37,068 nt of DNA, taken from the IMG/VR virus record IMGVR_UViG_3300035670_000079, positions 64,001 through 101,068 of that record. One strand, written 5' to 3'. This document shows, in pieces, positions 1 to 33,390 of this stretch; positions within the stretch are counted from its first letter, which is position 1; the number at the start of each line of letters is the position of its first letter. The stretch comes from a virus. The notes under the pieces are model-generated. The model did not search any database and was not told the DNA's origin. It was given only the letters and a program-made list of their open reading frames with translations. The translations under genes were made by a program, and so were the position numbers.

Positions 1-1
1 G

Positions 2-862
2 CAGGAGAAGGAAGCTGAGGAGAAACGTAATAAGCTGAAGGCTCAGATGAAAGAGGCTATGAGTCCTCTTGTGTCTGCGTCTAATGCGGCGGCTGACGCT
101 GCGGCTAAGCAAGTAAAGTCTGTCCAAGACTTGATAAATCTGTACACAGTTCTCTACAAAATTAGGATGTTTCAGGAGGCACGTGCTCGTGAGGCAGCAG
201 ACAGGGCATTTCAGGCTCAACAGAAAGTTGCCGATCTGGAGGCTAAAATCCAGTCCGGTAAGTACAGCGGCAGCAAGTTGCAAGCCTTGCAAGGTAACTT
301 GCAAAAGGCCCAATTCCAACAAAAGATGGAATTGGCAGTTGCAGGTACAAAACTTGCAATCGCTGGAATTGATCCTACTGCCGCAAGTGTCGCACAGCAG
401 TTTACTGGAACCCCCGCTACCGCACCCTCTTCGATTATGCAGACAATTTCTGGTACGCTTAGTGCTACTTATATCGTTGTAGTTGAGATTAGAGATTTGC
501 TTAGATCACTAATACTCAGTATGAAGATAGGGCCAAATGCCCCACTTACCCCCGCACAGGCGGCTGGTGCTACTGTATCAGGTAGCTTGCCTACGATAGG
601 CTCTGCGTTAGGTGCAGCGGCTCAAGGTTTACTTGGTGGTGGTGGGTTTGGTAATCTTGGATTTGCGGGTATGGCTGCGGGTGTGCCTTTCTTGTCGGCA
701 GCGGCTACCTCTGCCGTTACTGGTAAGCCTGCTACAGTGCCCGCAGGTGCCGCCGGGACTCCCGGTGATGTTACACTAAATGTAAATTCACTGATAGACT
801 TAAACGTGGCTGTGGATAAATTTAAAGGCATGCTTAAGAATGCTGGGTTTAATACGCCGTAA
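2..862 (+). CDS. C-terminal part of a probable tape measure or tail protein (5' partial)
   Basis: The reading frame is open to the left edge: codons from base 2 to the first ATG at 47 are charged and continuous (QEKEAEEKRNKLKAQ), so the true start lies upstream. The visible part begins with an Ala/Lys/Glu/Gln-rich, probably coiled-coil region up to about residue 110 after the ATG at 47. A hydrophobic stretch follows around residues 135-165 (IVVVEIRDLLRSLILSM), then a Gly/Ala-rich segment near 185-230 containing GLLGGGGFG. Helical coiled coil with hydrophobic and glycine-rich patches is typical of the end of tape measure proteins, and the genes that follow look like tail-tip genes, as in siphoviruses. 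No catalytic motif is seen. A coiled-coil structural protein other than the tape measure is possible. Confidence 0.6.
   Translation, partial: QEKEAEEKRNKLKAQMKEAMSPLVSASNAAADAAAKQVKSVQDLINLYTVLYKIRMFQEARAREAADRAFQAQQKVADLEAKIQSGKYSGSKLQALQGNLQKAQFQQKMELAVAGTKLAIAGIDPTAASVAQQFTGTPATAPSSIMQTISGTLSATYIVVVEIRDLLRSLILSMKIGPNAPLTPAQAAGATVSGSLPTIGSALGAAAQGLLGGGGFGNLGFAGMAAGVPFLSAAATSAVTGKPATVPAGAAGTPGDVTLNVNSLIDLNVAVDKFKGMLKNAGFNTP
278..292. repeat. Interspersed palindrome, site 1
   Basis: TTGCAAG-C-CTTGCAA, perfect 7-bp arms with a 1-nt centre. It lies inside the probable tape measure gene and is read as Leu-Gln-Ala-Leu-Gln. A third half-site CTTGCAA follows at 298-304. Confidence 0.9.
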
Positions 863-903: not shown

Positions 904-1308
904 ATGCCGTTCACACGGGCGACTTACGACGGTGAGGAGTTGCCAGTTAACTTTAGCTATAAGCCTTACGTGCCGGCTAAGCGGTTAGGGGTGCTTCCTA
1001 CCGCTACCGCTGTTGTCATACAGAGTGCAAGCCCTGCTCAAATTGTAGTAGGTGAGGATATAATTACTTGGCAAGTTAGGGCGGCATTCCCGACTGAGTT
1101 CAAACAGTTTTGGGACTGGTACAATACCGCGCTGCTTACAGGTAGTGAGGTAACCTTTACGGGTTACTGGGGCGAGGAACTTAAAGTTATCTTCGCAAAG
1201 TTTGAACCTCCATCCGTCAAGGGTAGGTTATTCGACCTATCAGGAGCATTTCAAGTAACTGAGATTGTTGGACAATATGATCCAACGTGTTCGCCTAGCT
1301 TAGCATAG
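904..1308 (+). CDS. Small probable tail protein
   Basis: 134 aa, preceded by a good Shine-Dalgarno (GGAGAGG, 892-898). It begins MPFTRATYDGEELPVNFSYKP and has a compact mixed beta composition with aromatic residues (FKQFWDWYNTALL; TFTGYWGEEL near residues 83-94). There is no signal peptide, membrane segment or enzymatic motif. Its place straight after the probable tape measure and before two large tail-like proteins suggests a minor tail protein, for example a distal-tail-type component. I do not recognise a named family, so the functional label rests on gene order. Confidence 0.55.
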   Translation: MPFTRATYDGEELPVNFSYKPYVPAKRLGVLPTATAVVIQSASPAQIVVGEDIITWQVRAAFPTEFKQFWDWYNTALLTGSEVTFTGYWGEELKVIFAKFEPPSVKGRLFDLSGAFQVTEIVGQYDPTCSPSLA

Positions 1309-1358: not shown

Positions 1359-2450
1359 ATGAGTAGGATTCTCCAAGATATTTCCGTAACTCCCTCCCTG
1401 CCGTCAGTCACATGGCGGCAGGATTTTTCGTTAGATGTTCCGATACTTCGGTATCCGATTAATTTGGCGAAATTCTGCCCGGAGGTGATACGATTATATG
1501 GATACTCATCTGGAGTAATACTTAGATGGACGGCAGTGCCCGGAGCATCCTTCTACGTTCTTCAGATGTGTCCGGATAACTCCTTTGCTGGGCCTAATTT
1601 AATTGGCATCAAGGTCATAGCTCAGAATGAGTATGAGTTGGCATATCTGGAGCATGCCCGGCTTAATCAAGAAGTTTTCTGGCGGGTTGCAGCTTGTGAC
1701 GGTGCTGGCGGGCTTTCTGGATTCTCACCGCCATTCAGTTTTAAGATTGAATGTCCTACGTCTGATGCCGATACTGACTATGATAATGAGAGTGGTGATT
1801 ATGCTCAGGTATCTGATCCTCAGCTATGCGATAAAACTGGAGTTGACCTTAAATTAGTTGGTCCCACTAATATGCGTATGAATGATACTCAGCGAGTATT
1901 TGCGTTAAGTATAAATTATGACTGTGACTCCCTAGACGCTCAGCCTATAACGGTAGACTCTGTGGTTTGGGAGATTGTACAGTCAACTAGTCAACCGGCT
2001 GAGATAACAGAGGCGAGTGACTACTACATTAAAGTAGACACTGATGCTGATGATGAGGAGATAATTGAGGTAAAAGCTACCGTACTGTTTGAAATTGAAG
2101 GTGGTGTAATATATGAATGTTCGGTACAGCAGCGTGTTATGATAGAAGGGCTTATGTCCGGAGGTGGTGGAGAACTCTACTTAGTTGAGTTCAATGATGT
2201 AGACTGTGCCGCAGGGACTGCTCAAGTGGTAGTTTTGCAGGAACCTTGCGGCGGAGGATTGCGAGCTAGTGCCGGAGAGCAGTTATCTGTAGTGGATAGG
2301 ACTGGCTGTAACCTAACCGGTGAGGCCGATACTCTAATAGGTCTGCGTGGTTGGGTTACCCCTATGGAGCCTATGTTAGGCCAGCCTGCGGGATACGACG
2401 GGTGTGAGTGGGTAATTGTCAATATGTGTTGTCCGGGATTTGGGTGCTGA
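1359..2450 (+). CDS. Probable tail or tail-fibre protein with a fibronectin III-like domain
   Basis: 363 aa. Residues of about 40-130 (VILRWTAVPGASFYVLQM; YELAYLEHARLNQEVFWRVAACDGAGGLSGFSPPFSF) have the alternating strands and the W-x-A/V-pattern of a fibronectin type III domain, common in phage tail and fibre proteins. An acidic segment (DADTDYDNESGDY) leads to a second beta-rich region. The C-terminus is Cys/Gly-rich and ends in NMCCPGFGC. No enzymatic motif is seen. It is followed after a single base by another Cys-rich tail-like gene, and the two probably act together at the tail tip. The Fn3 call is pattern-based; the virion role is inferred from neighbours. Confidence 0.6.
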   Translation: MSRILQDISVTPSLPSVTWRQDFSLDVPILRYPINLAKFCPEVIRLYGYSSGVILRWTAVPGASFYVLQMCPDNSFAGPNLIGIKVIAQNEYELAYLEHARLNQEVFWRVAACDGAGGLSGFSPPFSFKIECPTSDADTDYDNESGDYAQVSDPQLCDKTGVDLKLVGPTNMRMNDTQRVFALSINYDCDSLDAQPITVDSVVWEIVQSTSQPAEITEASDYYIKVDTDADDEEIIEVKATVLFEIEGGVIYECSVQQRVMIEGLMSGGGGELYLVEFNDVDCAAGTAQVVVLQEPCGGGLRASAGEQLSVVDRTGCNLTGEADTLIGLRGWVTPMEPMLGQPAGYDGCEWVIVNMCCPGFGC

Positions 2451-2451
2451 G

Positions 2452-3987
2452 ATGCCAATACGCGGAACATGTGTTTGCAGTTCGTCTAATCTGGCGGACA
2501 CATCCTGCGGAGGTTGCGTCAGGTGCGAGCCTAAGTATATTTGCTGTTACTTCAGATTCTCTCCGGGTGTTTACAGTACAAACAGTTGTCCCGGTGAGGG
2601 CAGCTATATTATGGCGTATGGTCCCGGAGGTGTCTGCGGAGCATGGGCACCATTACCAGAGTCACTGGCACTTATTGCGTCAGTGGACACTGTGATACTA
2701 GGGGATGTCTGCTACTATCGGATAATCTTGACAGTAGATTCCGACGGTTCTAGTGAGACTTTTCTTGTAGAGAAATCCGTAGGCTTCCTGAATTCTGTGG
2801 AGTCTACATTAGCTGATGATTTTGATCCCACTACTGCCACGACTGTATTTACAGTTGAGGATCAAGAAGGTGGTACGTGGACTGCATCCTTCTCCGGTGT
2901 GGCAGGTGTTGCTAATCCGTGGGTAGGTCGAGAATGCGGGCAGCCGTGTAAGTGCAGTCACTGCTGGCCAATGCTTAAATATGATATGGAGATAATTACA
3001 AATGGCTTCTGTGCCAATCGTTTATGCGGTCAATTGGGTTGGGATAGTGACTTAGGTAAGTATGATTCAGGTAACATTGACTTAGACTCATACGGGGTTA
3101 TAAAAGTAATCGGTGAGCCATTCCCGCTGGAACAGAACATTTGTGGTATCCAACTAAGGGTAGAGAAAGTCTCTGGTGGGAGCAATCTGTCTTTTGGTAC
3201 ATCCGAACTGTTTTTTGATGATGGGCCTAATAATCTTTGCGCAGATGGTAGTCTGCCTATGCAGCATTTTATTTGTCAGGAGAAACCACAGCCGGTGACT
3301 AACCCTACTAGGGTATTTGAGAATAGTTATGGTACTAGGGGAAACGGTTGTCCGGGTCAAGTTAGAACCTACCGGCATTTACTATCTACCACTATCTCGG
3401 TAGTGTTAGTAAGTACCGGTCAAACTATAAGCATGATTAATATAGGCCTAGGTGATTGCTCCATGTGTCCCAGCTCCGATGAAATATGTCCCGGAGGCTG
3501 CAAGGGACTTAAGATAGAGGACGTGCCTTGTGGTGCCAAAGTCCTTACTGGCGAGATTATAGCCCCCGACTGCTCTTTCCATCAATTCTCTTTCCCTATC
3601 TACTCGCAGCTTAGGCCGGAGCGAGACAGCACGCTGGATTCTTATGCTTCCAGAGGCTGCCAAGTTCACGCTACTAAGGCCGGAGGTGAGATAATCGGTA
3701 GTGGTGTAACTCAATTATTCATGTACGGCATACTTTACTATGCCCTGCGAACATCGTGTCCTGGAGATACTACTCCAGAAGACCCTTATGGTTATACGAT
3801 GTATCTTAGATTGAATGGATCATGTTTGATAGCACCTCTGGAAGTTTATATAACTTTTGACATAGCCTCGTGTGAGCCGGTGATACTTGAGGGAGACTTC
3901 CCGGTAGTAGGCGTCTCGGATAATCCATCTGATCTTTGCCGTATTTGCTCAAGCTACTCTACTGCAAGATTAAGGATAACAGAGTAA
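2452..3987 (+). CDS. Large cysteine-rich probable tail-tip or fibre protein
   Basis: I chose the ATG at 2452 (MPIRGTCVCSSSN), one base after the upstream stop. An in-frame ATG at 2416 lies inside the previous gene and adds an unlikely N-terminus. The 511-aa product contains 32 cysteines, many in CxC, CxxC or CPGGC clusters (CVC, CGGC and CC near the start; CGQPCKCSHC near 165-175; CSMC and CPGGC near 340-355). Long beta-rich, glycine-containing stretches lie between them. Such cysteine density is unusual for a phage protein and suggests metal-binding knuckles or disulfides in an extracellular tail structure. There is no signal peptide or catalytic motif. Its stop abuts the next ATG (TAAATG), so it is translationally linked to the enzyme cassette. 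Function is inferred from position. Confidence 0.55.
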   Translation: MPIRGTCVCSSSNLADTSCGGCVRCEPKYICCYFRFSPGVYSTNSCPGEGSYIMAYGPGGVCGAWAPLPESLALIASVDTVILGDVCYYRIILTVDSDGSSETFLVEKSVGFLNSVESTLADDFDPTTATTVFTVEDQEGGTWTASFSGVAGVANPWVGRECGQPCKCSHCWPMLKYDMEIITNGFCANRLCGQLGWDSDLGKYDSGNIDLDSYGVIKVIGEPFPLEQNICGIQLRVEKVSGGSNLSFGTSELFFDDGPNNLCADGSLPMQHFICQEKPQPVTNPTRVFENSYGTRGNGCPGQVRTYRHLLSTTISVVLVSTGQTISMINIGLGDCSMCPSSDEICPGGCKGLKIEDVPCGAKVLTGEIIAPDCSFHQFSFPIYSQLRPERDSTLDSYASRGCQVHATKAGGEIIGSGVTQLFMYGILYYALRTSCPGDTTPEDPYGYTMYLRLNGSCLIAPLEVYITFDIASCEPVILEGDFPVVGVSDNPSDLCRICSSYSTARLRITE

Positions 3988-5112
3988 ATGGATGAGAAAG
4001 AATTTTCATGTGAGTGTCCTGTAGCTGGGTATTGTAAAACTTTTCAGCGTCATATGACAGGTAGGGAGTTTGAAGTATGCAGCGGACCACCTACTACTCA
4101 AAAGGCCAGCTTTGTTAAGTTTTGGTTGAAGCAAGCTAAGTTAGATGAAGCCAATACCCCTGAAATTATCCGGGGTATTGGTGATGTTGCCGCTAAGGTT
4201 ATCAAGTCTGTTACTAAGAAAGCCCCATGTGTGCCATGTTTGAAGAGGGCTGCAAGTTTGAACAGGATTGTACCTATTAATTCTTACCCTGAGTTAGACA
4301 CTACTCCAATAAGCTTGGAGACCTCTGTTAGGCACTTGGTATATTTTCTTTTCCCCGTAGCGGGTGATCATGAATGGATTTGGCGAAGACAGTTGGAAAA
4401 ACTTGCAAGTCTTGCAAGCATCTTTAATGGTAGAATTTTTATACGTACCGTGCACGGTCACTTGAAGAATCGCACGCCAACGATTGACCAAGATACCTGT
4501 AGAACGGTGGTGCAATCGTACCTGCCTAACGCTGAGGTTACGAATTACGTAAATGACACCAAGCTTAGGGAGGTCGTAGGATTCGTAGAGACCTTAAATA
4601 CGTTGCAGTCTGTGAATTCTACTGATTTTATTTGCGTAGCTCACGCTAAGGGTCTTCAGTACTCTGACGCAACTAGTGTGGTACATACATGGACAGACAT
4701 TATGTACGAGACAGTCATAGAAGACTGGCAGCGTGCCATATCGTGCTTAGATCGTTATGGCGTTAGCGGTTCATTTAAGCGGTACGGTCAGTTTACTACT
4801 TATAAGAATCATCGTTGGCACTACTCTGGGACATTTTACTGGTTAAGGGCTGCAAGCCTATTTCGTAGAAACTGGGCATACACTGATCAGCGCTTTTGGG
4901 GTATGGAATCTTACCCTGGCTCGCACTTTAGGCCTCGTGAGGGTGCTTGCTTATTTATGGACAATGTTAATGATCTATATAAGAAAGATGAGATGGATAA
5001 AGCTTGCAAGCTCTTGCAAGAGTGGCGTGAGAATAAGCCACTGATACCCGATCCAGTAGAATATGAGGAACAAATGAAAAGCTGGGGAGTCAAACCAATA
5101 TGGTCGAGATGA
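3988..5112 (+). CDS. Glycosyltransferase-like protein with N-terminal Cys-rich module, paralogue A
   Basis: 374 aa, starting directly after the previous stop. The N-terminus has a putative zinc module (C8, C10, C16, C31; CECPVAGYC) and another CxxC at 81-84. The main domain, about 110-340, carries HAKG at 219-222 and HRWHYSGTFYWLR at 275-287. The next gene shares this whole domain at high identity (SVRHL-YF, WRRQLE-L, LREV-GF, GSFKRYG), and the N-terminal half of the gene at 6743 shares it more distantly. An H-x-KG motif followed by an SG-(T/N)-F-(Y/W)-W motif occurs in uncharacterised glycosyltransferase-like proteins. I know no proven activity, so the assignment is tentative. The context suggests modification of a virion component. 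Confidence 0.5.
   Translation: MDEKEFSCECPVAGYCKTFQRHMTGREFEVCSGPPTTQKASFVKFWLKQAKLDEANTPEIIRGIGDVAAKVIKSVTKKAPCVPCLKRAASLNRIVPINSYPELDTTPISLETSVRHLVYFLFPVAGDHEWIWRRQLEKLASLASIFNGRIFIRTVHGHLKNRTPTIDQDTCRTVVQSYLPNAEVTNYVNDTKLREVVGFVETLNTLQSVNSTDFICVAHAKGLQYSDATSVVHTWTDIMYETVIEDWQRAISCLDRYGVSGSFKRYGQFTTYKNHRWHYSGTFYWLRAASLFRRNWAYTDQRFWGMESYPGSHFRPREGACLFMDNVNDLYKKDEMDKACKLLQEWRENKPLIPDPVEYEEQMKSWGVKPIWSR
4403..4417. repeat. Interspersed palindrome, site 3
   Basis: TTGCAAG-T-CTTGCAA, perfect, inside the glycosyltransferase-like gene, where it is read as part of Leu-Ala-Ser-Leu-Ala-Ser. Confidence 0.9.
5004..5019. repeat. Interspersed palindrome, site 4
   Basis: TTGCAAG-CT-CTTGCAA, perfect arms with a 2-nt centre, near the 3' end of the same gene and read as Ala-Cys-Lys-Leu-Leu-Gln. 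Confidence 0.9.
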
Positions 5113-6137
5113 CGCAGGATACATTGGCAGGTGCTGATGAGGTTGACTATACAGTGTGCAGTTGCCCCTTGCAGGGGTATTGTCCTAAGTTTCGTAGGGA
5201 AATGAGTTTTAATGAGTGGAGAAAGTGCAATAGCCCTGGTCCTGCGCGATCGGCTATGCTTCGTAAGTTTTTTAAAGCTGACAGTCTCTCAGTCCGTGCT
5301 TTTGAGGACAGGCATTATCCCCCGCTCTGTACTATGCCTGTAGAGTTCTCCACCAGTGTTCGGCATTTGAATTACTTTATTTACCCGCTTGCTAAGCATT
5401 CTGACAAAGTTTGGCGTAGGCAGCTTGAATTGTTAGGTGAGGGCAAGTCGGCTATCAATGGTAAGTCCATTGTCCGCATAGTTACCGGAGGTGGCTGTAG
5501 TAGTATCAGTGAAGTAACTAAGGCAGTCGTAGACTTGGGTCTACCTAATTTGCAAATAGTCTATATACGCAATAACCGAGACTTACGGGAAGTTAACGGT
5601 TTCATCCCGTCAATAGCGCCGTTGGAAACGCTTAATCCTAATGAGTATATATTCTTTGCTCACGCTAAGGGTGTGACTCACGATGATAAGTCTACGGCGC
5701 ATCGCTGGTCAGAGATAATGTATCAGACGCTGTATTTTAATTGGCCGGCTGTGTTACCTTTCTTGAACACCTACGGATGTCTTGGGTCATTCAAGCGATA
5801 TGGCGAGTTTAATGTCCCTAACTCCCATAGGTGGCACTACTCTGGAACATTCTATTGGGTACGCTCTGCCAGCCTATTTGCAAGAGATTGGCAAATGTGT
5901 TGCCCAACTACTCATGGAACTGAGTCATATTTGGGGATGCACTTTAGGCCTAGCGAGGCTGGCTGTGTATTTATGGACCTATGCGAGAATGTCTATGACA
6001 CTACCTATTTTAGGGATGTCGTAGAGAAGGAATTTGCAGTATGGGCATCCAAATCATTGAAGCTTCCTGCTACTGTGGCTGAGTACGAAAGGTTCTTAGA
6101 GAAGTCCCATAAATTTAACCTGCCAAGAGGGATTTGA
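5100..6137 (+). CDS. Glycosyltransferase-like protein with N-terminal Cys-rich module, paralogue B
   Basis: 345 aa. The ATG at 5100 has a GGGGAG ribosome site about 10 nt upstream and overlaps the previous gene by 13 nt. The ATG at 5109 (ATGA overlap) is the alternative start. It is a tandem duplicate of the preceding gene. The N-terminal module has C20, C22, C28 and C43 (CSCPLQGYC, then a conserved F-x-R-x-M). HAKG is at 188-191, HRWHYSGTFYWVR at 243-255, and a conserved GTESYLGMHFRPSE follows. The Cys-rich N-terminus aligns with that of paralogue A (C-x-CP-x2-GYC), so the module duplicated together with the enzyme domain. The likely role is sugar transfer to a virion or surface target; no activity can be proven from sequence. 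Confidence 0.5.
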   Translation: MVEMTQDTLAGADEVDYTVCSCPLQGYCPKFRREMSFNEWRKCNSPGPARSAMLRKFFKADSLSVRAFEDRHYPPLCTMPVEFSTSVRHLNYFIYPLAKHSDKVWRRQLELLGEGKSAINGKSIVRIVTGGGCSSISEVTKAVVDLGLPNLQIVYIRNNRDLREVNGFIPSIAPLETLNPNEYIFFAHAKGVTHDDKSTAHRWSEIMYQTLYFNWPAVLPFLNTYGCLGSFKRYGEFNVPNSHRWHYSGTFYWVRSASLFARDWQMCCPTTHGTESYLGMHFRPSEAGCVFMDLCENVYDTTYFRDVVEKEFAVWASKSLKLPATVAEYERFLEKSHKFNLPRGI

Positions 6138-6146
6138 CCACTCATT

Positions 6147-6746
6147 ATGTTTTCAGAGAAACCTTTCCGCCACTGGATACTTGATAACTTTATACCGCCC
6201 TCAATGGTTAGTGCCGCCTTGTTGGAGTGGCCTGCCCCAGTTTGGCCCTACTGGCATAGATATAATGACAAGACTTCTAAGAAATATGCGTCGAAGGATA
6301 TACTTAGATTAGGTCCGGCATGCTTGAGTATTTTTAACGATATTTGTAAACTGGATATCTGTAGTTTAACCGGTGATCCTGAAATTTTTCCAGACTTCAG
6401 CGGTTATGGTGCGGGGATGCATTGGATACCCGAAGGTGGTTTTTTAGGCATGCACCTAGACACTGCTAAGCATCCTATCACTGAGTGGCGCAGGGAGTAC
6501 TCAGCATGCCTTTACCTTACTCCGGAAAGCTCCGGAGACTTAGTATTGGCGGATAATCCGGAATTTGCTGACAGTCATAGGGTTAGCCCTAAAGCGGGCA
6601 CATTGGTAGTATTTGAGTGTACCGATTCCTCGTATCACGGTGTTCCGGAGGTGGTAGAATACCCCGGAGGTCGTAAGTCAGTAGCAGCATTCTTCTGGTC
6701 TACTCGTGAAGTTACCGCTACGCGAACAAAGGCTGACTTTAAATGA
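6147..6746 (+). CDS. 2OG-Fe(II) dioxygenase (prolyl 4-hydroxylase-like)
   Basis: 199 aa. The enzyme class uses Fe(II), O2 and 2-oxoglutarate to hydroxylate a substrate. The iron ligands are visible: H103 and D105 in GMHLDTAKHP, and the distal H164 in SSYHGVPEV. R176 in GGRKSVAAFFW would bind 2-oxoglutarate. The strand pattern between them (YSACLYLTPE, GDLVL, GTLVVFE) fits the double-stranded beta-helix core, and the length suits a stand-alone catalytic domain. It lies between glycosyltransferase-like genes and overlaps the next start by 4 nt (ATGA). Hydroxylation before glycosylation of a tail protein is an attractive but unproven pairing. The substrate is unknown. Confidence 0.8.
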   Translation: MFSEKPFRHWILDNFIPPSMVSAALLEWPAPVWPYWHRYNDKTSKKYASKDILRLGPACLSIFNDICKLDICSLTGDPEIFPDFSGYGAGMHWIPEGGFLGMHLDTAKHPITEWRREYSACLYLTPESSGDLVLADNPEFADSHRVSPKAGTLVVFECTDSSYHGVPEVVEYPGGRKSVAAFFWSTREVTATRTKADFK

Positions 6747-7972
6747 AGTATCACTTATTGTACCATTGCTACCCTGAAAATAATTGGATGGACTGCGTTG
6801 AGGATATGTTCAGATTCTTGCGATTGTTTAATGGTCGCAGGGTTGTAACTATTGTAGATTCTGGTGACTGGAATAAAGCTGCCGAGATATTTAGCGTTAA
6901 GGGATTTGAGGTAAAGCTTGTACCAAAATTACCTAGTCAGGAATATAGAGGTTTCGTACTAGGCTTAGATAAACTGCGGTCGGAGGAAGGTTGGATATTT
7001 AGGTCACACACTAAGGGTGTATCTGCTCAAGGTAGACGACCTGCATGGGCGTCTACCCGTTGGCGTAGAACAGCGCTACATCACTGCCTAAGTGAAAGTA
7101 CTGTTGCAAGTCTTGCAACAACCTCAAGCAAGTTTATAGGAACTCACTGGTTACCGGTTAGAATTGCCGGCTCCCCGGACAGACCTTGGAAACACTGGCA
7201 TTTTGCCGGAAGCTCCTACTGGATGCGTCCTCAAGATATCCCAGCAGATATTTGCAGTTATCCTGAAGATTTGTATTTGTGTGAGTACTATCCTGGGATA
7301 GTTTGCGATGCGTCTGAAGTTACTAATTTAGCAATGTCTGAGCCTACTCTGGATACAAATAAGCCGGATACTTTCGGTGAAATAGAATTTTGGACGCCCT
7401 CTGCTAATTACCTTGAACTCCTCGCTAAGAGGTATGGAACAGATAAGGGAAAAGACTTCGATTATTGTCACGGTTATACCGACGTTTATTCGGAGTTATT
7501 TGAGCCTATTCGTGATGATGTGACAGCATTATTGGAGTTTGGCATAGGCCAAGGTGGTAGTATGCTAATGTGGCGTGAGTACTTCTTAAATGCTCATATA
7601 ACTGGAGTTGATTGTGAACGAGACCATAAGATTCCAGAACACTTGAAGAACTATAGTAGGTTACGTATCCTGAATACGGATTATATGCTAGAGGATATCA
7701 AACTCACACATAGGCCGGATATCATCATTGACGATGGTAGCCATTATACAGCGGATCAGCAATACTTGTTTCAAAAATATTGGCAATATGTGAAGTCTGG
7801 CGGGTATTATATCATAGAAGATTTACATGTTAACTACCATCCTATTTTCAATAACTCCTATGAGGCTACTATTGACCTATGCCGTAATTGGGAACGCCGG
7901 CCACCTACTGGTTTTCAGTGGTGCAAGTTGTTTAACGACAAGTTAGCAGTACTCAAGAGGAGGACATTTTAG
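6743..7972 (+). CDS. Fusion of glycosyltransferase-like domain and class I SAM methyltransferase
   Basis: 409 aa with two domains. The N-terminal half, about 1-195, is a shorter relative of the paralogues at 3988 and 5100: HTKG at 89-92, HWHFAGSSYWMR at 151-162. The C-terminal half, about 217-409, resembles sugar O-methyltransferases of the demethylmacrocin (TylE-like) type. It has YGTDKG near 231-236, a glycine-rich SAM loop LEFGIGQGGS at 264-273, the acidic end of strand 2 (GVD, 288-290) and IIIDDGSH at 327-334. One chain that could transfer and methylate a sugar, or act on two substrates, fits the modification cassette. It ends directly before the next ATG. The methyltransferase half is the surer call. 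Confidence 0.7.
   Translation: MKYHLLYHCYPENNWMDCVEDMFRFLRLFNGRRVVTIVDSGDWNKAAEIFSVKGFEVKLVPKLPSQEYRGFVLGLDKLRSEEGWIFRSHTKGVSAQGRRPAWASTRWRRTALHHCLSESTVASLATTSSKFIGTHWLPVRIAGSPDRPWKHWHFAGSSYWMRPQDIPADICSYPEDLYLCEYYPGIVCDASEVTNLAMSEPTLDTNKPDTFGEIEFWTPSANYLELLAKRYGTDKGKDFDYCHGYTDVYSELFEPIRDDVTALLEFGIGQGGSMLMWREYFLNAHITGVDCERDHKIPEHLKNYSRLRILNTDYMLEDIKLTHRPDIIIDDGSHYTADQQYLFQKYWQYVKSGGYYIIEDLHVNYHPIFNNSYEATIDLCRNWERRPPTGFQWCKLFNDKLAVLKRRTF
7104..7118. repeat. Interspersed palindrome, site 5
   Basis: TTGCAAG-T-CTTGCAA, perfect, inside the glycosyltransferase-like half of the fusion gene, read as Val-Ala-Ser-Leu-Ala. Confidence 0.9.
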
Positions 7973-8671
7973 ATGAACTGTGAGCACTGCGGTGCTGATA
8001 TTTCCGGAGGTGACCGGGACGATGTATTTGTAAAGTGCAATATCTGCGATCACTGGACTCCGGATGGTCGTACATTTGAATCCGTAAAATCCCTATATTC
8101 CGGTGAAGACTACGTAATGAATAGTCAGAAGGCTGTAAATGGGTTTGATAAGCTCTGTGAGCAGTGGACTACTAACATAGGGATATTGAAGCAGTTTAGG
8201 GTACGTGGATTAGCGCTGGAGGTTGGTTGTCGGGAAGGTGCCGGAGTAGCGGCACTAACTGCTGCGGGTTACGAGACGTTTGGATTTGACATATCCGAAA
8301 AGTCTAAGGAATGCAGCGTAGCTAACGGCATACCTGCTCATAGGATATTTGTAGCGGATGATTTCTGTGATCTCACGCTGCCCATTAAGTTTGATATCAT
8401 AACTGTTAGAGAGGTTATAGAGCACGTCCCGAATCCTGTGAAGTTTTTGGGAAGTTGCGCATCTAAGTTAGCGGTAAATGGCCTTCTGCAAGTTCAAACT
8501 CCACGTTATGACCGCGTTGAGAGATTTTGGTCTGAGAAAACTCATTTGAGGATATACTCTAAAAAATCTCTTATGGACGATATTAGCGGGATGCCGCCGT
8601 ATAATCTATCACTAGTACATGAATTGTTATGGCAAGGCGGTATGTGTCTGACATTTAAAAAGATCGCTTAA
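7973..8671 (+). CDS. Class I SAM-dependent methyltransferase with N-terminal zinc knuckles
   Basis: 232 aa, starting directly after the previous stop. Residues 3-25 form a zinc-ribbon-like pair (C3-x2-C6, C22-x2-C25). The methyltransferase core follows: motif I LEVGCREGAG at 82-91, GFDIS at 104-108 and motif IV/post-I EVIEHVPNP at 147-155, then a typical SEKTHLRIYS segment. This matches methyltransferases of the type 11/23 group that act on small molecules or sugars, often encoded beside glycosyltransferases. The zinc knuckle may dock it to a target. The substrate is unknown. It belongs to the same tightly spaced operon as the oxygenase and glycosyltransferase-like genes. Confidence 0.8.
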   Translation: MNCEHCGADISGGDRDDVFVKCNICDHWTPDGRTFESVKSLYSGEDYVMNSQKAVNGFDKLCEQWTTNIGILKQFRVRGLALEVGCREGAGVAALTAAGYETFGFDISEKSKECSVANGIPAHRIFVADDFCDLTLPIKFDIITVREVIEHVPNPVKFLGSCASKLAVNGLLQVQTPRYDRVERFWSEKTHLRIYSKKSLMDDISGMPPYNLSLVHELLWQGGMCLTFKKIA

Positions 8672-8673
8672 TC

Positions 8674-9267
8674 ATGTCAACCAATGGCAACTCAGACTCG
8701 ATCCATAGGATAAATGAATCCGTAAGTTGCTTGCGGAGTGACGACACTTTACTTGATTGCTTCGTTTTACATGGCATCTACTCGCCGGAACTTCGGAGTT
8801 ACTTGAGATCCGTTGCATTTGAAAATGCTGTAACAGATCATACATGGCAGCGACTCGGCGATATGCTGGCTCCGGAGGTGATTACAAATAGCTTAAATAA
8901 CTATGACGTAGGAGATAAAGTATTAGGAGCAAGTTGTTACAAATCATTCAACCGATATAGATTAGTCAGGGTAGTTAGGGATTACTCAAAGAGTGTCGAG
9001 GCTCTGGTAACTTTTGGGCATGGTCGAGATCACCACTTAAGTCACGTACTATGGGATCATCCTGCCAGTAATATGCTGCTGGTATTGCCGATATACCAAC
9101 GGTTCCGGTTTAACGTAGTTAGCAGTTCCGTAGTTATTAATGTTGGAGATGGTTTGCTAATCCCAAGTCGATTTCGCAAAGCTGACATAATAGATATAGC
9201 AATAGAGCACAACGGGTTAGCGGGGGCAGCCTACTGTCCCTATGTGTTCGGAGGAAATAATGTCTGA
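8674..9267 (+). CDS. Protein of unknown function in the modification cassette
   Basis: 197 aa; family not recognised. It starts 2 nt after the methyltransferase stop. The C-terminal half is beta-rich, with a histidine-rich segment (GHGRDHHLSHVLWDHP near 114-129) followed by hydrophobic strands and GDGLLIPSRF near 163-172. This is faintly reminiscent of a double-stranded beta-helix (cupin or 2OG-oxygenase) fold, but a complete metal triad is not clear. Its position suggests it works with the neighbouring oxygenase, transferase and methyltransferase genes. It overlaps the next gene by 8 nt. Confidence 0.6.
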   Translation: MSTNGNSDSIHRINESVSCLRSDDTLLDCFVLHGIYSPELRSYLRSVAFENAVTDHTWQRLGDMLAPEVITNSLNNYDVGDKVLGASCYKSFNRYRLVRVVRDYSKSVEALVTFGHGRDHHLSHVLWDHPASNMLLVLPIYQRFRFNVVSSSVVINVGDGLLIPSRFRKADIIDIAIEHNGLAGAAYCPYVFGGNNV

Positions 9268-9571
9268 TATTGTACAAAAGTTATTGAACACTCTCGATCT
9301 ACCTGAGAAAGCTCGAAAAACTGCAAGTCTTGCAAGAGCACTTTTAACAGGCAAGGATGTATCAGTTGGGCGACTTGAGACTAGGCTTAAGATTTGTGCA
9401 AGCTGTCCATACATCTCCAAGCCGGCTGCTAATGGCACGCTTTCTTGCAGCATCTGTGGATGTAAATTAGCTGGCGATAATCGTCTTATAAATCTAGCCA
9501 GATATGAGGAAACTGATAGTTATGGCTGTAAGTATCCCGGTGGGTCTAAGTGGAAGGAGGCTGGAGTATGA
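9260..9571 (+). CDS. Small zinc-ribbon protein
   Basis: 103 aa. I chose the ATG at 9260 because a strong GGAGG (9250-9254) sits 5 nt upstream. An earlier in-frame ATG at 9242 lacks a ribosome site and is buried in the previous gene. The N-terminus is a short helical segment. The C-terminal half has a cysteine array (CASCPY, then CSICGCKLA, then a lone C before KYPGGSKW) typical of the small zinc-ribbon proteins encoded near phage tail genes. No catalytic residues are seen. It probably acts as a structural or adaptor protein. It overlaps the next start (ATGA at 9568). Confidence 0.65.
   Translation: MSDIVQKLLNTLDLPEKARKTASLARALLTGKDVSVGRLETRLKICASCPYISKPAANGTLSCSICGCKLAGDNRLINLARYEETDSYGCKYPGGSKWKEAGV
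9321..9335. repeat. Interspersed palindrome, site 6 (one mismatch)
   Basis: CTGCAAG-T-CTTGCAA: the outer left base is C instead of T. It lies inside the zinc-ribbon gene and is read as Ala-Ser-Leu-Ala. Confidence 0.85.
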
Positions 9572-11433
9572 CTGGTGGAATACCGGTAGACTCACTGAGC
9601 AATAATTTTGCTAACTGGTCTGCGAATTACAGCCTTGAGTCAGGGTTCAGTGCATCAGCTACGCTAACAAATCAGAATAACACCTATTCTCCGGATAATT
9701 TCAGATGGCAGCCGCTGCGCGTGGCTGTAGGTTGTACATCAGCTACAGAGCTAGTAGATGATAGTTTTCTGCAAGGCTCCGTTAACTGGATTAATGGTAT
9801 AGTGACATCAGCTAGTTCGCCTACGGACATTCGTGAGTCTAAGCTTGAGTTGAGTATTGGCAGCTACTTTGGCAGCCTATCTAGTCGGCCTATTAATACT
9901 CATACTTACAACGCACTAGCTCAAGATATCATACTTGACATAGTTACCGTGTATTTCGGAATACCTTTGGGATTACTGGATTTCAGTTCCACTGGGATCT
10001 CTGTTATCAATCTGCCAATATATGGGCAAACTGCGTGGAGTGAGCTTGAGTTGCTTGCCGAAGTTTGCGGTTGCCATTTGTTCGTGCAAGTTGGTGGATT
10101 ACTTACGCTGAGTCCGTGGAAAGATGACAATTCTTCTGTTGACTTAGTGCTGCCACCAGAACTCATTGCGAGTATAGATGTTGTCAGAACCGTGGAGAGG
10201 GGTCCAACACGGTTATTCATAAAGGGTAAATGGACTAGCATGTTTGGTTGTGGTCCCGCCTTGCTTACCAATAGCGAGGGAGATGAGCCACAGTTTGAAA
10301 CACCTAAATGTTATATTACCGGGGTTAAGGAAGCTACATCACAGCTACACATGAAAAATATTGCTGCAAGCAAGACTGACCTCATTAATGCAGCCTATCT
10401 GACAGACGGGGACTTGTTTCAATTTATTCGACCAGCAACTCAAAATTCCAATGGCTCTGTTAGCTTCTCTGTGAATAATGGTGTAGATTCTACACCTGCG
10501 GGAGTAGTGCAGCGGACTCATGTTAAGATACTTGCCAGACGGCAAGATGGAGATAAGGGAGAGAAAACATCTCACAAAGGTAAAACAACTAAAGCGGTTA
10601 TCTCCAGACAGGACAGGGTATTCTCAAAGTTAATGGGACTACCTCCGGGATCAGCATTTCCGCCGGAGGCTGACGCAGATAGAACATCAGATTCAGGAGA
10701 CGAGAATAGACAGCTAGTGGCAATAATTGATACTGATCTTGAATCTGAGTTCGGAGTAATACCTGAAACAATAGATAACCAGTACGTCAATAACAGTTTG
10801 GCGGCTATAGCCATTGCCATACGCAAGTTCCAAGAATTTAAGATGAGACGTAAGCGATATAAGGTAACGTCTGCATATATTGCCGGATTACGTTTGAATC
10901 AAGTTGTCACGTTTCCTACTATTCAAGACCCTGATGTTACTATTACTGGGAGAGTTGCCTCGATAAATGTCAGCTATTCACCAGCATCGTCTGGATTTGG
11001 TATGACTATGACATTTGAGGTAGACTCATTTGAGGATATTGGTAATACGATTTACACTGCCGGCAACCTGTTTGTGTATCCGGAATGCTGCGGCATTAAC
11101 GGAGTTGACTGGTTTAAGGATGGTGAGGTCTATGCCGTAGCGGGACACTTCGCCATTAAAGCAGGGTCTGCTATTGGGCAGAGACTTTACACTATTCCCG
11201 GCGCTGACTACAGTATAACTGTTGAAGCTAAGCTACTGTCAGACGTTGGTACGTTCAGAATAGACTACTACAATAATGGAACATTCATAGGCTCTAGTGC
11301 TAGTATCTCGTCTAATCAGTCATTGAACTTATCATTCGTAGCTCCCGGTAGCGTTACGGAGATTTACTTTGTGGCGGTTGCAGGTGACTGGGCTGTAACT
11401 AATCCGCTGGCAACAATACTTATCACAGCATGA
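9568..11433 (+). CDS. Probable baseplate-hub or tail-associated protein
   Basis: 621 aa from the ATG at 9568, which has AAGGAGG 7 nt upstream and an ATGA overlap with the previous gene. A GTG at 9550 is a weaker alternative. The first 200 residues are beta-rich; WSELELLAEVCGCHLFVQVGGLLTLSPWK, near 165-193, resembles the pattern in gp27/gpD-like hub proteins, where a shortened tail frame assesses a local domain. Middle strands and a region near 420-470 (KYKVTSAYIAGLRLNQVVTF) fit hub-type repeats. The last 100 residues look like a carbohydrate-binding jelly-roll (YSITVEAKLLSDVGTFRIDYYNNG). I infer a structural virion protein, possibly with a receptor-binding tail. The hub assignment is moderate. 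Confidence 0.5.
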   Translation: MTGGIPVDSLSNNFANWSANYSLESGFSASATLTNQNNTYSPDNFRWQPLRVAVGCTSATELVDDSFLQGSVNWINGIVTSASSPTDIRESKLELSIGSYFGSLSSRPINTHTYNALAQDIILDIVTVYFGIPLGLLDFSSTGISVINLPIYGQTAWSELELLAEVCGCHLFVQVGGLLTLSPWKDDNSSVDLVLPPELIASIDVVRTVERGPTRLFIKGKWTSMFGCGPALLTNSEGDEPQFETPKCYITGVKEATSQLHMKNIAASKTDLINAAYLTDGDLFQFIRPATQNSNGSVSFSVNNGVDSTPAGVVQRTHVKILARRQDGDKGEKTSHKGKTTKAVISRQDRVFSKLMGLPPGSAFPPEADADRTSDSGDENRQLVAIIDTDLESEFGVIPETIDNQYVNNSLAAIAIAIRKFQEFKMRRKRYKVTSAYIAGLRLNQVVTFPTIQDPDVTITGRVASINVSYSPASSGFGMTMTFEVDSFEDIGNTIYTAGNLFVYPECCGINGVDWFKDGEVYAVAGHFAIKAGSAIGQRLYTIPGADYSITVEAKLLSDVGTFRIDYYNNGTFIGSSASISSNQSLNLSFVAPGSVTEIYFVAVAGDWAVTNPLATILITA

Positions 11434-11445
11434 AAGTGGATTGAG

Positions 11446-12873
11446 ATGAAACCTGAGATTGAATTTGATGCTACTGAAGTCTTCTCGCACATCTTCGTTA
11501 GTACCACATGGTCAACTAGCTTAGGGCATGGGAAGGCTACGGTTAACTTTACAAACTCCGGCACCGTTACAATTAGCGGTGAGGAGTTTACTTATGATTT
11601 CGTACATCAACCTACGCCGGCTATTCTCATACATAAGGGAGAGACTCTTATGTTTAAGTTTGAGTGGTTCGATGATGTTAAGTATTTCAAATCCAAGAGT
11701 CCGTACAATGCTGGATTTGAGTTACTCAAGCCTATGTCAAATATGCTTGAATGGAATAAGTTGTGTGATTCACGCACACTGAAGCGGAAAGAGCGGTTGG
11801 CTAGGGCTACGGCTGCCAAGAAGGGTATAGTCAAGCGGCAAACTACGGATACCCGTGGTTACTTTATCCCTGATTATATGATACTCAAGGAGTTTCCGGA
11901 CCATAAGACTAAGCATAAGCTGGCAATAGGGTTAATTGCTGCCGACCGCCCGCATTATTTTAAGAGAGTTTTTCCCGCTATTGTGCAATCTGTTGCACTA
12001 GCTGAGATTGAAGTTGATTGGTACCTGTTTGTCGATAGAGTTAAGCCGGATGCGCGGGATGAGCTTGCGCAGATTGAATTATTTAACAATATGGTAAAGG
12101 GTGGTACAGTTATTCGCCGTGACGTTAATTTTGGCTGTGGTGGGAATATCATAAATGCTAGGGCTATCCTGCTGGATCAGTTAGATTATGAAGCTGCTTA
12201 TATTTTTGAAGATGATATGGTTCCGCATCCATCCTATGTTAGTGTTTGTGAAAGCTTGGCTAAATACGCGGAGCGTGTGTCTACGCCTGAAATTAACTAC
12301 GGAATAGTACAAGGGTGGAATTGGTTTACACTTAGTAGCGGTGCGGCTCAGAGGTATGCATCCTACGTTACACCTACATGTAGTAATTTGTGGGGATATA
12401 GGATTACTCGTAAATGTTGGTCAGATATTTCTGAGTTTATGTATTTCTACTTGAATACTTTTCTGAAAAATTGTAGATACGCTGATAGGGACCATCGCTC
12501 GATAGCTACATGGTTGCGTAATCAGACTAGGAATTATGTTGTTCCCGATCTTCCGGTATTCGGTAATAAGTGTCCGGCATTTTCTGAAAAGATTGTAAGA
12601 TACTTAGCTGGTCCACCTACGGGTCAGGATGCCGCTACTGTAGTAGCCTGTTTGTTGGCTAATCAGTATAGACTTGCTCCTGTGGTTGCTAGAGGTGACT
12701 ACATAGGAAAGATGGGGATACACATGAATCCTCGTCAATGGGCAGCAGACGGTTATGATGCTCTTAAGTCTGTGGATATCGGTTATGATCATGATCAGTG
12801 GGATGAACTTGTTGGTCATGTCACTGATGACTTCAAACAAGTAAACTCTGTGGAAGGGCTGGTGTCAGCGTAA
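11446..12873 (+). CDS. GT-A glycosyltransferase with beta-rich N-terminal domain
   Basis: 475 aa. Residues 1-100 are beta-rich and contain a small Ig/CBM-like pattern (KATVNFTNSGTVTISGEEFTYDF). Residues of about 155-300 carry the glycosyltransferase domain: KLAIGLIAADRPHYFKRVFPAIVQS opens it, FVDRVKPDARDE gives a second strand, and YIFEDDMVPHPSY at 253-264 holds the E-D-D (DxD-type, 255-257) metal and nucleotide-sugar site. The pattern is close to that of GNT-I-like enzymes. The rest includes NLWGYRITRKCW, typical of acceptor-side segments. It lies between a hub-like tail gene and the Acb2-like gene. A transferase fused to a virion-like domain is unusual, and it may modify or ride on the tail. 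Confidence 0.7.
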   Translation: MKPEIEFDATEVFSHIFVSTTWSTSLGHGKATVNFTNSGTVTISGEEFTYDFVHQPTPAILIHKGETLMFKFEWFDDVKYFKSKSPYNAGFELLKPMSNMLEWNKLCDSRTLKRKERLARATAAKKGIVKRQTTDTRGYFIPDYMILKEFPDHKTKHKLAIGLIAADRPHYFKRVFPAIVQSVALAEIEVDWYLFVDRVKPDARDELAQIELFNNMVKGGTVIRRDVNFGCGGNIINARAILLDQLDYEAAYIFEDDMVPHPSYVSVCESLAKYAERVSTPEINYGIVQGWNWFTLSSGAAQRYASYVTPTCSNLWGYRITRKCWSDISEFMYFYLNTFLKNCRYADRDHRSIATWLRNQTRNYVVPDLPVFGNKCPAFSEKIVRYLAGPPTGQDAATVVACLLANQYRLAPVVARGDYIGKMGIHMNPRQWAADGYDALKSVDIGYDHDQWDELVGHVTDDFKQVNSVEGLVSA

Positions 12874-31769: not shown

Positions 31770-32212
31770 TGGGGCTTCATCCTATTTGTCAACTGGTTCT
31801 GGATATTGAACCCTTTGCTTCGCAGTCTGTTAGGGTTACGAAGTCTGGAAGATGTTATCCAGATTCCGCTAAGATGGCATTTATGGCAGAGGTTGCTAGG
31901 CAAGTGTCTGAGCAGTGGCAAGCGCCTCCATTAGATATTCCCATTTTTCTGGTATTAGCGTGGGCTTTCGGAGCTAAGCGTACCGCTCTTAGGGACACGG
32001 CTCCTGATGTGGATAATCTACACAAACCACTACTTGACGGAATGGCTAAGATACTGTATACTGTAGACAGTCGCATAGTCGGGACGTGTAGCTTAAAGAT
32101 GAACGTAAAAGGAATTTCAAAAATTCTGGTTACCCCTTGCGTGGTACGCCCGCATATACAAGAAATCGAAAAATGGTTTCAAGATGCAAAACCTAGGAAA
32201 AGCTTAAAATGA
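31751..32212 (+). CDS. RusA-like Holliday junction resolvase
   Basis: 153 aa from the ATG at 31751, overlapping the nuclease end by 19 nt. The family signature is APDVDNLHKPLLDGM at 84-98 (acidic residues D86, D88 and D96, plus K92), followed by VDSRIV (105-110), matching RusA-type endonucleases that cut four-way junctions. Length fits the family (about 120-150). The first 30 residues (QLVLDIEPFASQSVRVT) supply the strand-1 pattern. Two different resolvase families within about 2 kb is unusual. It shares an ATGA overlap with the next gene. Confidence 0.82.
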   Translation: MDPFSLVGLHPICQLVLDIEPFASQSVRVTKSGRCYPDSAKMAFMAEVARQVSEQWQAPPLDIPIFLVLAWAFGAKRTALRDTAPDVDNLHKPLLDGMAKILYTVDSRIVGTCSLKMNVKGISKILVTPCVVRPHIQEIEKWFQDAKPRKSLK

Positions 32213-33390
32213 CAGATATAGATTCTCTTGCAATTGATGGTGGCTTAGGCGATGTGCTGATACTTAGCCGTTGCCTTAAAGCGTGGCCAACGCCATTAGA
32301 TTACTACATACCTAAAAGGTATATCAGTTTGATCCGTTGCTTGGATTTGCCTGAACATATTACAGTGCATGATATCCGCTTGATACGTAATCCGGTCGAG
32401 CGCGATAAGCGGTGCAAGCGCTTGCAAGATGCTACCCAGTTTATAGTTAATCACGACGACGGTACATTTAAGGATATGGATTATTTTAATGTGGCGTTGG
32501 ATACGTTAGGGCTTAGCCTAGACTCACCCTTAGCCGTGTTAGATACTCGTAAGTTGGCAAGCACTATAAGTGACGATGACTATAATTGGCTTGGATTAGC
32601 TGGCTCTGACTGCTTGGCTATAGCTCCCGGAGCATCTTTATCCAATCGTAGAATGGATTATGAGAATGTCTTAAATATCATACGGGCTGCGATAGGCGCA
32701 GAGCGTATTTATATTTGTGGCGGGCTAGGGGATTCTATTGGTACAAATAGTAGGATAACTTGTTTATGCGCGGCTAGTCTTGAGTTGCAAGCTTTGTATT
32801 TGGAGAGCGTGGGTTTATTTATTTGCACTGATTCTGGATTTTTGCATTTAGCTAACGCCTTACCTAATCCCCCTAAGACTATATGCTTTAGCACCGTAAT
32901 GCCTAAGCACGCTATTGCCAGTCGCTACGATAATACATTAGTACTCTCGCCGGATGCTATTCCAGAGAAGCTGATAGGTAGGCCCAATGCTATCCATAAG
33001 GATACCTATAAGTACACTCGAAAGATACTCGCAGATACTCCCGACACTACTGTTATGCCCGATTGCGCTGAAGTGTTACAGATATTGGCTAATCAGGGTA
33101 ACTGCCCAGAGTATTTGAAGTTTACCGCATTGGATGGGTCAGATTGTTTACGTGTTCAGGTTGACTCAAATTTTCCGTGGGCACATTCTGTTAAACTAGT
33201 CGCTAGGGGCATTGAAGTTGTGTTAGCGCCGGAGTCACCTGATCCGGAGGTGCCAATAATACGGACAATAGGTAATGATCAGTACTCGATACAGATGCCA
33301 GCATTATTTGGAGATAAGTTGATATTTTGTCATATAAAGACTGTTGATGACCTTATTCGGACCATCCGAGAGATAGTGTCTAGCAAGTAG
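32209..33390 (+). CDS. Glycosyltransferase family 9-like (heptosyltransferase-like) protein
   Basis: 393 aa, starting on an ATGA overlap. It has the GT-B two-domain plan of LPS heptosyltransferases: an N-terminal domain opening DSLAIDGGLGDVLILSRCLKAW, and a C-terminal nucleotide-sugar domain with LAIAPGASLSNRRMDYENVLNII (near 136-158) and YLESVGLFICTDSGFLHLANALPNPPKTICFS (about 197-228). GLFICTDSGFLHLA matches the GT9 D-(S/T)-G-x-x-H motif. After about 300 the tail is variable. It may modify LPS or a phage component. Its place at the end of a recombination cluster is odd. Confidence 0.7.
   Translation: MTDIDSLAIDGGLGDVLILSRCLKAWPTPLDYYIPKRYISLIRCLDLPEHITVHDIRLIRNPVERDKRCKRLQDATQFIVNHDDGTFKDMDYFNVALDTLGLSLDSPLAVLDTRKLASTISDDDYNWLGLAGSDCLAIAPGASLSNRRMDYENVLNIIRAAIGAERIYICGGLGDSIGTNSRITCLCAASLELQALYLESVGLFICTDSGFLHLANALPNPPKTICFSTVMPKHAIASRYDNTLVLSPDAIPEKLIGRPNAIHKDTYKYTRKILADTPDTTVMPDCAEVLQILANQGNCPEYLKFTALDGSDCLRVQVDSNFPWAHSVKLVARGIEVVLAPESPDPEVPIIRTIGNDQYSIQMPALFGDKLIFCHIKTVDDLIRTIREIVSSK
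32412..32427. repeat. Interspersed palindrome, site 19 (one mismatch)
   Basis: GTGCAAG-CG-CTTGCAA: the outer left base is G. It lies inside the GT9-like gene, read as Cys-Lys-Arg-Leu-Gln. Confidence 0.82.

Follow-up and report, generated by a model that had tools for sequence, protein, structure and literature searches.

Glycosyltransferase-like, oxygenase and methyltransferase genes beside a cysteine-rich gene in a phage tail module: a candidate system for tail-protein modification

RESULTS

A cassette of enzyme genes in the tail module

We analyzed a 37,068-nucleotide window, which covers positions 64001-101068 of a metagenomic virus contig 101 kb long (IMG/VR record IMGVR_UViG_3300035670_000079), for a gene cassette that may encode a system for modifying a tail protein. 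The segment 3988-8671 encodes two glycosyltransferase (GT)-like paralogues, GT1 and GT2, and a 2-oxoglutarate (2OG)-Fe(II) oxygenase, OXY; a protein that fuses GT and methyltransferase domains follows, and then another methyltransferase. All these genes are packed behind the tape-measure gene. A preliminary description, made from the letters of this DNA, had reported three GT-like domains, a 2OG-Fe(II) oxygenase and two methyltransferase domains between tail genes. Genes, motifs and profiles agreed with it at each position, and the location in the tail module also held, with the end of the tape-measure gene upstream and a similar placement in many phages. The cassette and the gene before it are as follows (aa, amino acids; SAM, S-adenosylmethionine).

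2452..3987, + strand: cysteine-rich protein (6.3% cysteine), candidate substrate by its cysteine content and its position relative to GT1
3988..5112, + strand: GT1, N-terminal CxC..C..C motif and a GT-A-like domain (family profile 7e-79, with GT1 itself in the profile; 36% identity to GT2)
5100..6137, + strand: GT2, paralogue of GT1 with a modelled GT-A fold at residues 79-316 (AlphaFold2, Foldseek, VIA-align)
6147..6746, + strand: OXY, predicted 2OG-Fe(II) oxygenase (PF13640, alignment, nearest solved relatives)
6743..7972, + strand: fusion of a GT3 domain (about residues 1-210; GT2 and family-profile matches) with a predicted MycE-like sugar O-methyltransferase domain (phrog_21658, MycE, TylE)
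7973..8671, + strand: MT2, predicted class I SAM methyltransferase with N-terminal zinc-ribbon-like cysteines (Methyltransf_23; homologues in loci L009 and L023)
8674..9267, + strand: 197-aa protein of no family (profile searches without match)

The open reading frame (ORF) of the cysteine-rich protein was listed from a TTG at 2416 and contains 33 cysteines in that form; its likely start is the ATG at 2452. The cysteine-rich gene meets GT1 in TAAATG, and TAGATG precedes MT2; GT1 and GT2 overlap by 13 bases, OXY and the fusion by 4. Because the genes are so tightly packed, the arrangement suggests one transcription unit. The last gene may lie outside the system: family and homology searches with the 197-aa protein gave no match, and the related locus L008 has no counterpart of it, OXY there directly preceding the homologue of a small cysteine-containing protein of 109 aa.

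The GT-like proteins share a predicted GT-A fold

GT1 and GT2 share 36% identity (E 3e-74), and the N-terminal half of the 6743-7972 product is a distant third copy, GT3, which matched GT2 with an E value of 2e-5 and the family profile, built with GT3 included, with 6e-53. All three carry an HxKG motif (HAKG at position 219 of GT1 and 188 of GT2, HTKG at 89 of GT3) and a WH[YF][SA]G motif (positions 277, 245 and 152, respectively). No Pfam, PHROG or NCBIfam profile names this domain, and a cultured-phage collection searched with GT1, GT3 or GT4, a further candidate at 11446, gave no match. RgpF (PF05045) was considered for its similar-looking motifs; its profile had no match on the contig while the control matched in three genomes, and the GT domain may be a distant relative of it.

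The preliminary description had proposed comparing predicted structures with GT folds. An AlphaFold2 model of GT2, built on 19 sequences, had a mean predicted local distance difference test (pLDDT) score of 80.3, with at least 82 in each ten-residue block from 71 to 320. Foldseek matched it to GT-A enzymes and related nucleotidyltransferases, and VIA-align to GT-A enzymes with Z scores up to 11.4 over residues 79-316; ranks less than one Z unit apart are tied here, and the human protein LH3 at the top is not to be over-read. The model thus supports a GT-A fold for GT2. In an alignment of 19 diverse GT sequences, 13 residues were invariant, including H188, K190, W245, H246, G249 and E275.

Oxygenase and methyltransferases

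The OXY sequence scored 52.1 bits against PF13640, for which the curated cut-off is 27. The iron-binding triad HxD...H and the 2OG-binding arginine (H103, D105, H164 and R176) were invariant in nine sequences, and these catalytic residues are likewise present in gp109 of the Streptomyces phage Zuko. By these sequence features, OXY is a member of the 2OG-Fe(II) oxygenase superfamily. Its nearest solved relatives were mostly protein prolyl hydroxylases (prolyl 3-hydroxylase 1, OGFOD1 and the HIF/EGLN type), and PKHD types also appeared among these relatives; a prolyl-hydroxylase-like character of OXY is supported at this level.

The methyltransferase domain of the fusion matched phrog_21658 (1e-22), MycE (8e-14) and TylE (1e-11). 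Alignment with MycE and TylE showed that the DDGSH and IED residues are kept (D331, H334, E359 and D360). The catalytic residues of the MycE family are Asp275, His278 and Asp304 (PMC9275233); they align to D331, H334 and D360 of the fusion, with the crystal-tag offset being our own reading. The comparison supports a sugar-type O-methyltransferase as the predicted role of the fused domain. MT2 matched Methyltransf_23 with an E value of 7.8e-14, and its homologues adjoin GT and OXY in L009 and GT in L023, where the homologue was itself part of the search profile.

The GT family recurs beside cysteine-rich proteins

Seeding with the three GT domains gave 16 viral loci. Three oxygenases as an OXY seed gave 15 loci, at least 3 of them on contigs already in the collection, and 13 of these 15 contained the GT family, the exceptions being L035, where the contig is truncated, and L039. 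One cysteine-rich family alone as seed gave 34 usable loci, each with at least 2.5 kb downstream and near-identical contigs included; GT was found within the next genes in 32 and a methyltransferase in up to 11, and in the two GT-less loci the adjacent gene begins, as judged by eye, with a GT-type N-terminal cysteine domain. A second cysteine-rich group used as seed gave no contigs beyond those already collected.

The nearest upstream ORF of at least 150 aa contained at least 5% cysteine in 22 of 26 GT loci, compared with 9 of 278 other ORFs (Fisher's p = 1.6e-22, a value in which the related loci overstate independence), and the cysteine content of those upstream proteins was 5-10%. Two of the exceptions could be followed by eye: in L008 a 169-aa gene intervenes, with a cysteine motif resembling the GT N-terminal regions, and in L023 the ORF calls overlap and a cysteine-rich ORF (8564-9829) was passed over. 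The arrangement is not due to chance, because it recurs among loci from three different seeds.

OXY has a patchier distribution. It was present in 6 of the 34 loci seeded with the cysteine-rich family, versus 32 for GT, and on the GT tree its state switches 6 times or more (11 by parsimony). OXY is an optional partner: GT often occurs without OXY, and OXY rarely without GT. The preliminary description had invoked hydroxylation followed by glycosylation, and the loci do not establish this fixed order. Because OXY is optional across loci, an obligatory first-step hydroxylation is not favored, and OXY may have the sugar or additional sites as its target.

For a cysteine-rich relative in L058, the one modelled, the predicted structure (pLDDT 78.7) was all-beta; it had no PDB match at an E value of 0.001 or better, and in BFVD it matched two uncharacterised phage proteins. 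The collagen-like or flagellin-like target suggested initially was not supported, the recurring neighbor being instead a cysteine-rich protein, predicted all-beta where modelled. A collagen-like target was rejected after a search for G-X-X runs among the contig's proteins found none. Elsewhere, at 16316-19337 of L039, the only untruncated OXY-seeded locus without the GT family, several ORFs a few kilobases off carry collagen-like G-X-T repeats.

Radical SAM genes stand beside GT in L007, L010, L013 and L023, and the one in L010 has Radical_SAM and SPASM domains. Such neighbors hint at more modification chemistry.

Homologues in cellular genomes

Of 294 genomes sampled from the phylum of the Planctomycetaceae metagenome-assembled genome G001, 4 contained GT homologues; 3 of the 4 (G001, G002 and G221) were probably already in the collected set. 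Some cellular GT homologues lie on contigs with tape-measure-like genes (L023). In L115, which belongs to a chromosome of 7.2 Mb, the GT homologue has as neighbors a large protein whose start is cysteine-rich and small ORFs of 4.4-4.5% cysteine, and on the Planctomycetota-type contigs L024 and L028 the homologues are also near cysteine-rich proteins. Across L115, L028 and L024, these neighbors are either very large proteins with cysteine-rich starts or small cysteine-containing proteins. Planctomycetota are plausible hosts for some GT-bearing phages, since their genomes contain GT homologues, some of them by tape-measure-like genes.

Other features of the window

Further genes of the tail region are listed below.

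1..862, + strand: 3' end of the tape-measure gene (1545-aa protein starting upstream of the window; contig ORF 60225-64862; PHROG tape-measure profiles to 2.6e-58)
904..1308, + strand: 134-aa small tail-region protein (homologue with 47% identity at the equivalent place in L008)
1359..2450, + strand: 363-aa protein (L008 homologue, 38% over nearly the full length)
9260..9571, + strand: small cysteine protein with CxxC pairs (39% homologue in L008, standing directly after OXY; likely start ATG 9260 from the sequence)
9568..11433, + strand: large conserved protein (33% identity to the L008 homologue across 615 aa; PHROG and Pfam searches without match)
11446..12873, + strand: GT4, N-terminal domain and a putative GT-A domain with an EDD motif (kept in the L008 homologue, 29% identity)

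The C-terminal part of the 363-aa protein (about residues 259-363) matches the gene directly upstream of the cysteine-rich gene in L009 and L011 (E 1.6e-4). The 9568..11433 product is probably a tail-tip or hub-like protein. For GT4, which the preliminary description had called a further GT-A enzyme, no profile matched and a PDB search gave nothing meaningful; the EDD motif, kept in one relative, is the sole basis for regarding it as a putative GT-A enzyme. A 393-aa protein (32209-33390) with a GGLGDVLILSRCLK stretch near its start gave a weak heptosyltransferase match (E 0.056) and is possibly another glycan enzyme.

The palindrome TGCAAG-N(0-3)-CTTGCA, counted with up to one mismatch, is present in 52 copies on the 101-kb contig, often intragenic (in the window, for example, at 1333, 4404, 7105, 9322, 13394, 21046 and 30691), and resembles a highly iterated palindrome. 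There were 13 copies of TGCAAGNCTTGCA in the window versus 0.1 expected. The related L008 contains the general form 11 times in 21.7 kb, and the 15-base form is nearly absent from the 294 genomes sampled in the G001 phylum. At 16 copies each, CCGGAGGT and CGGAGGTG were the commonest 8-mers in the window and may represent an extended ribosome-binding motif. At the contig end (3-398 in L003), the first ORF opens with tandem NPASLV repeats, possibly an assembly artefact.

DISCUSSION

A phage-encoded system for modifying a tail protein

The genes, the fold, the active-site residues and the recurring neighborhood are directly established. With moderate confidence, we interpret the cassette as part of a system, encoded by the phage, for the post-translational glycosylation of a tail protein, with the cysteine-rich protein as the probable target and with hydroxylation and sugar methylation as optional additions. 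GT1, GT2 and the GT3 domain would transfer sugars onto a tail-region protein from nucleotide sugars that are probably made by the host. Neither the Epimerase nor the NTP_transferase profile matched the contig, in keeping with donors made by the host, provided that the contig is representative. The best candidate for the acceptor would be the cysteine-rich protein encoded directly upstream (2452-3987), because a protein of this kind is the constant partner of GT. The attached sugar would be O-methylated by the MycE-like part of the GT3 fusion, and possibly by MT2 as well, and OXY would hydroxylate either the protein, at an acceptor residue, or its glycan. We infer these activities, the substrate and the order of the steps from the genes, as well as a benefit that might lie in altered adsorption or in protection of the tail. 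Of the virion modification system put forward initially, the GT-A-type fold, the prolyl-hydroxylase-like OXY, the fusion of a sugar-type methyltransferase with a GT domain and the place in the tail module were supported; the collagen- or flagellin-like target was not, and the order of steps is not established.

Several points weigh against this interpretation. Its weakest point concerns the cysteine-rich protein of the window itself, which could not be aligned with the cysteine-rich groups of other loci and is equivalent to them by position and composition only. Neighboring genes are not necessarily enzyme and substrate, the metagenomic contig may be incomplete, and related GT-OXY pairs also occur in polysaccharide-type-looking clusters (L046 and L027). 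Finally, GT2 has no counterpart of the DXD motif: HxKG (HAKG) follows the fourth strand (182-188), the usual place of DXD, a metal site that is common but not universal in GT-A enzymes.

The polysaccharide-type clusters would suit enzymes that alter a surface glycan of the host during infection, for receptor masking or superinfection exclusion, and whose place in the tail module is incidental. In the marine virus AG-345-E08 (L046) the GT-OXY pair lies amid sugar-synthesis-like genes, on the Omnitrophota contig L027 it lies beside further GT-like ORFs, and the OXY-GT-MT-GT run of Zuko is near the genome end, away from annotated tail genes. The very tight pairing with a cysteine-rich tail-region protein in many phages speaks against this, as does the absence from the contig of matches to either of the two sugar-nucleotide synthesis families tested, and we consider such a role rather improbable. 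That HxKG replaces DXD where the fourth strand of GT2 ends could also mean that the GT-like proteins are no longer, or not mainly, enzymes and instead serve the tail as structural or carbohydrate-binding components, a view that would suit their N-terminal cysteine domain and constant place after the cysteine-rich tail-region gene. The invariant residues look active-site-like, one GT copy is fused to a sugar-methyltransferase-like domain, and metal-independent GT-A enzymes lacking DXD exist, all of which make a structural role distinctly improbable.

A variant compatible with glycosylation of the tail protein has OXY acting on the sugar, with glycosylation first and hydroxylation or oxidation late and optional. 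It draws on the rarity of OXY relative to GT in the loci seeded with the cysteine-rich family, the presence of GT in nearly all OXY-seeded loci and the repeated changes of OXY on the GT tree. The protein prolyl hydroxylases that make up most of OXY's nearest solved relatives count against it, and serine or threonine acceptors could make up for a lost acceptor-making step; we regard this variant as unlikely, while giving it appreciable weight. Hypermodification of phage DNA, in which a base is oxidised and then glycosylated, has precedents in other phages with sets of TET-type oxygenases and GTs. OXY belongs to PF13640 and is prolyl-hydroxylase-like, the genes are in the tail module, and a PF00145 C5-methylase was not found on the contig, which makes this extremely improbable. 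The Tet_JBP profile also had no match on the contig, a weak negative since the control matched nowhere; DNA hypermodification was rejected as neither profile found a supporting gene.

Returning to tail-protein glycosylation, we tentatively suggest, at somewhat less than an even chance, that the cassette belongs to a widespread, previously undescribed tail-modification system. In it, a GT-A family lacking DXD would be dedicated to cysteine-rich beta-repeat tail proteins, and oxygenases, radical SAM/SPASM proteins and sugar methyltransferases would join it as modular partners. Dozens of uncultured phages would carry the system, several of which plausibly infect Planctomycetota. Glycosylation of phage-tail proteins is barely explored. 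The recurring pairing of enzyme and tail-protein genes names a candidate substrate and makes the role of a tail glycan in adsorption, stability or protection testable, and it also helps to annotate, by sequence, a GT family that has no Pfam entry.

Comparison with known systems

In the literature searched, which included few subscription papers, we did not find the GT family, its cysteine-rich partner, their pairing or such a cassette described. The cultured Streptomyces phages Zuko and KimJongPhill encode an oxygenase homologous to OXY (29-34% identity). Zuko has an OXY-GT-MT-GT run with all oxygenase catalytic residues present, but the run is not by annotated tail genes and the family profile matched no GT in the examined Zuko region. 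Human LH3, which combines a lysyl hydroxylase with a collagen GT, resembles the cassette in having a hydroxylase and a GT within one system, and the GT2 model matched its GT-A-like domain at residues 293-511 with a Z score of 11.4, tied with many GT-A folds. The similarity is one of fold only, at 9% identity; the hydroxylase is of another type, and no collagen is present in the window's system.

Phage virion glycosylation and MycE-like methylation of virus fibrils are already known in kind. The structure of Mimivirus R699 was among the GT-A fold matches of the GT2 model (Z 10.4). Mimivirus differs in being an amoeba virus whose glycosylation targets are collagen-like, targets that are absent from the window's contig. 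For the MycE-like methyltransferase R132 of Mimivirus, methylation of virion-fibril sugars has been proposed (PMC10117803). MycE and TylE themselves are O-methyltransferases of antibiotic sugars and have catalytic residues in common with the fusion, the phage version being fused to a GT domain. Mycobacteriophages encoding GTs have been reported to carry glycans on capsid and tail-tube subunits (Freeman et al. 2023, as cited in PMC12619734). The window's cassette differs in that its GT family has no Pfam match and stands in the tail module by a cysteine-rich gene, accompanied by an oxygenase and by a predicted sugar methyltransferase that is fused to a GT domain.

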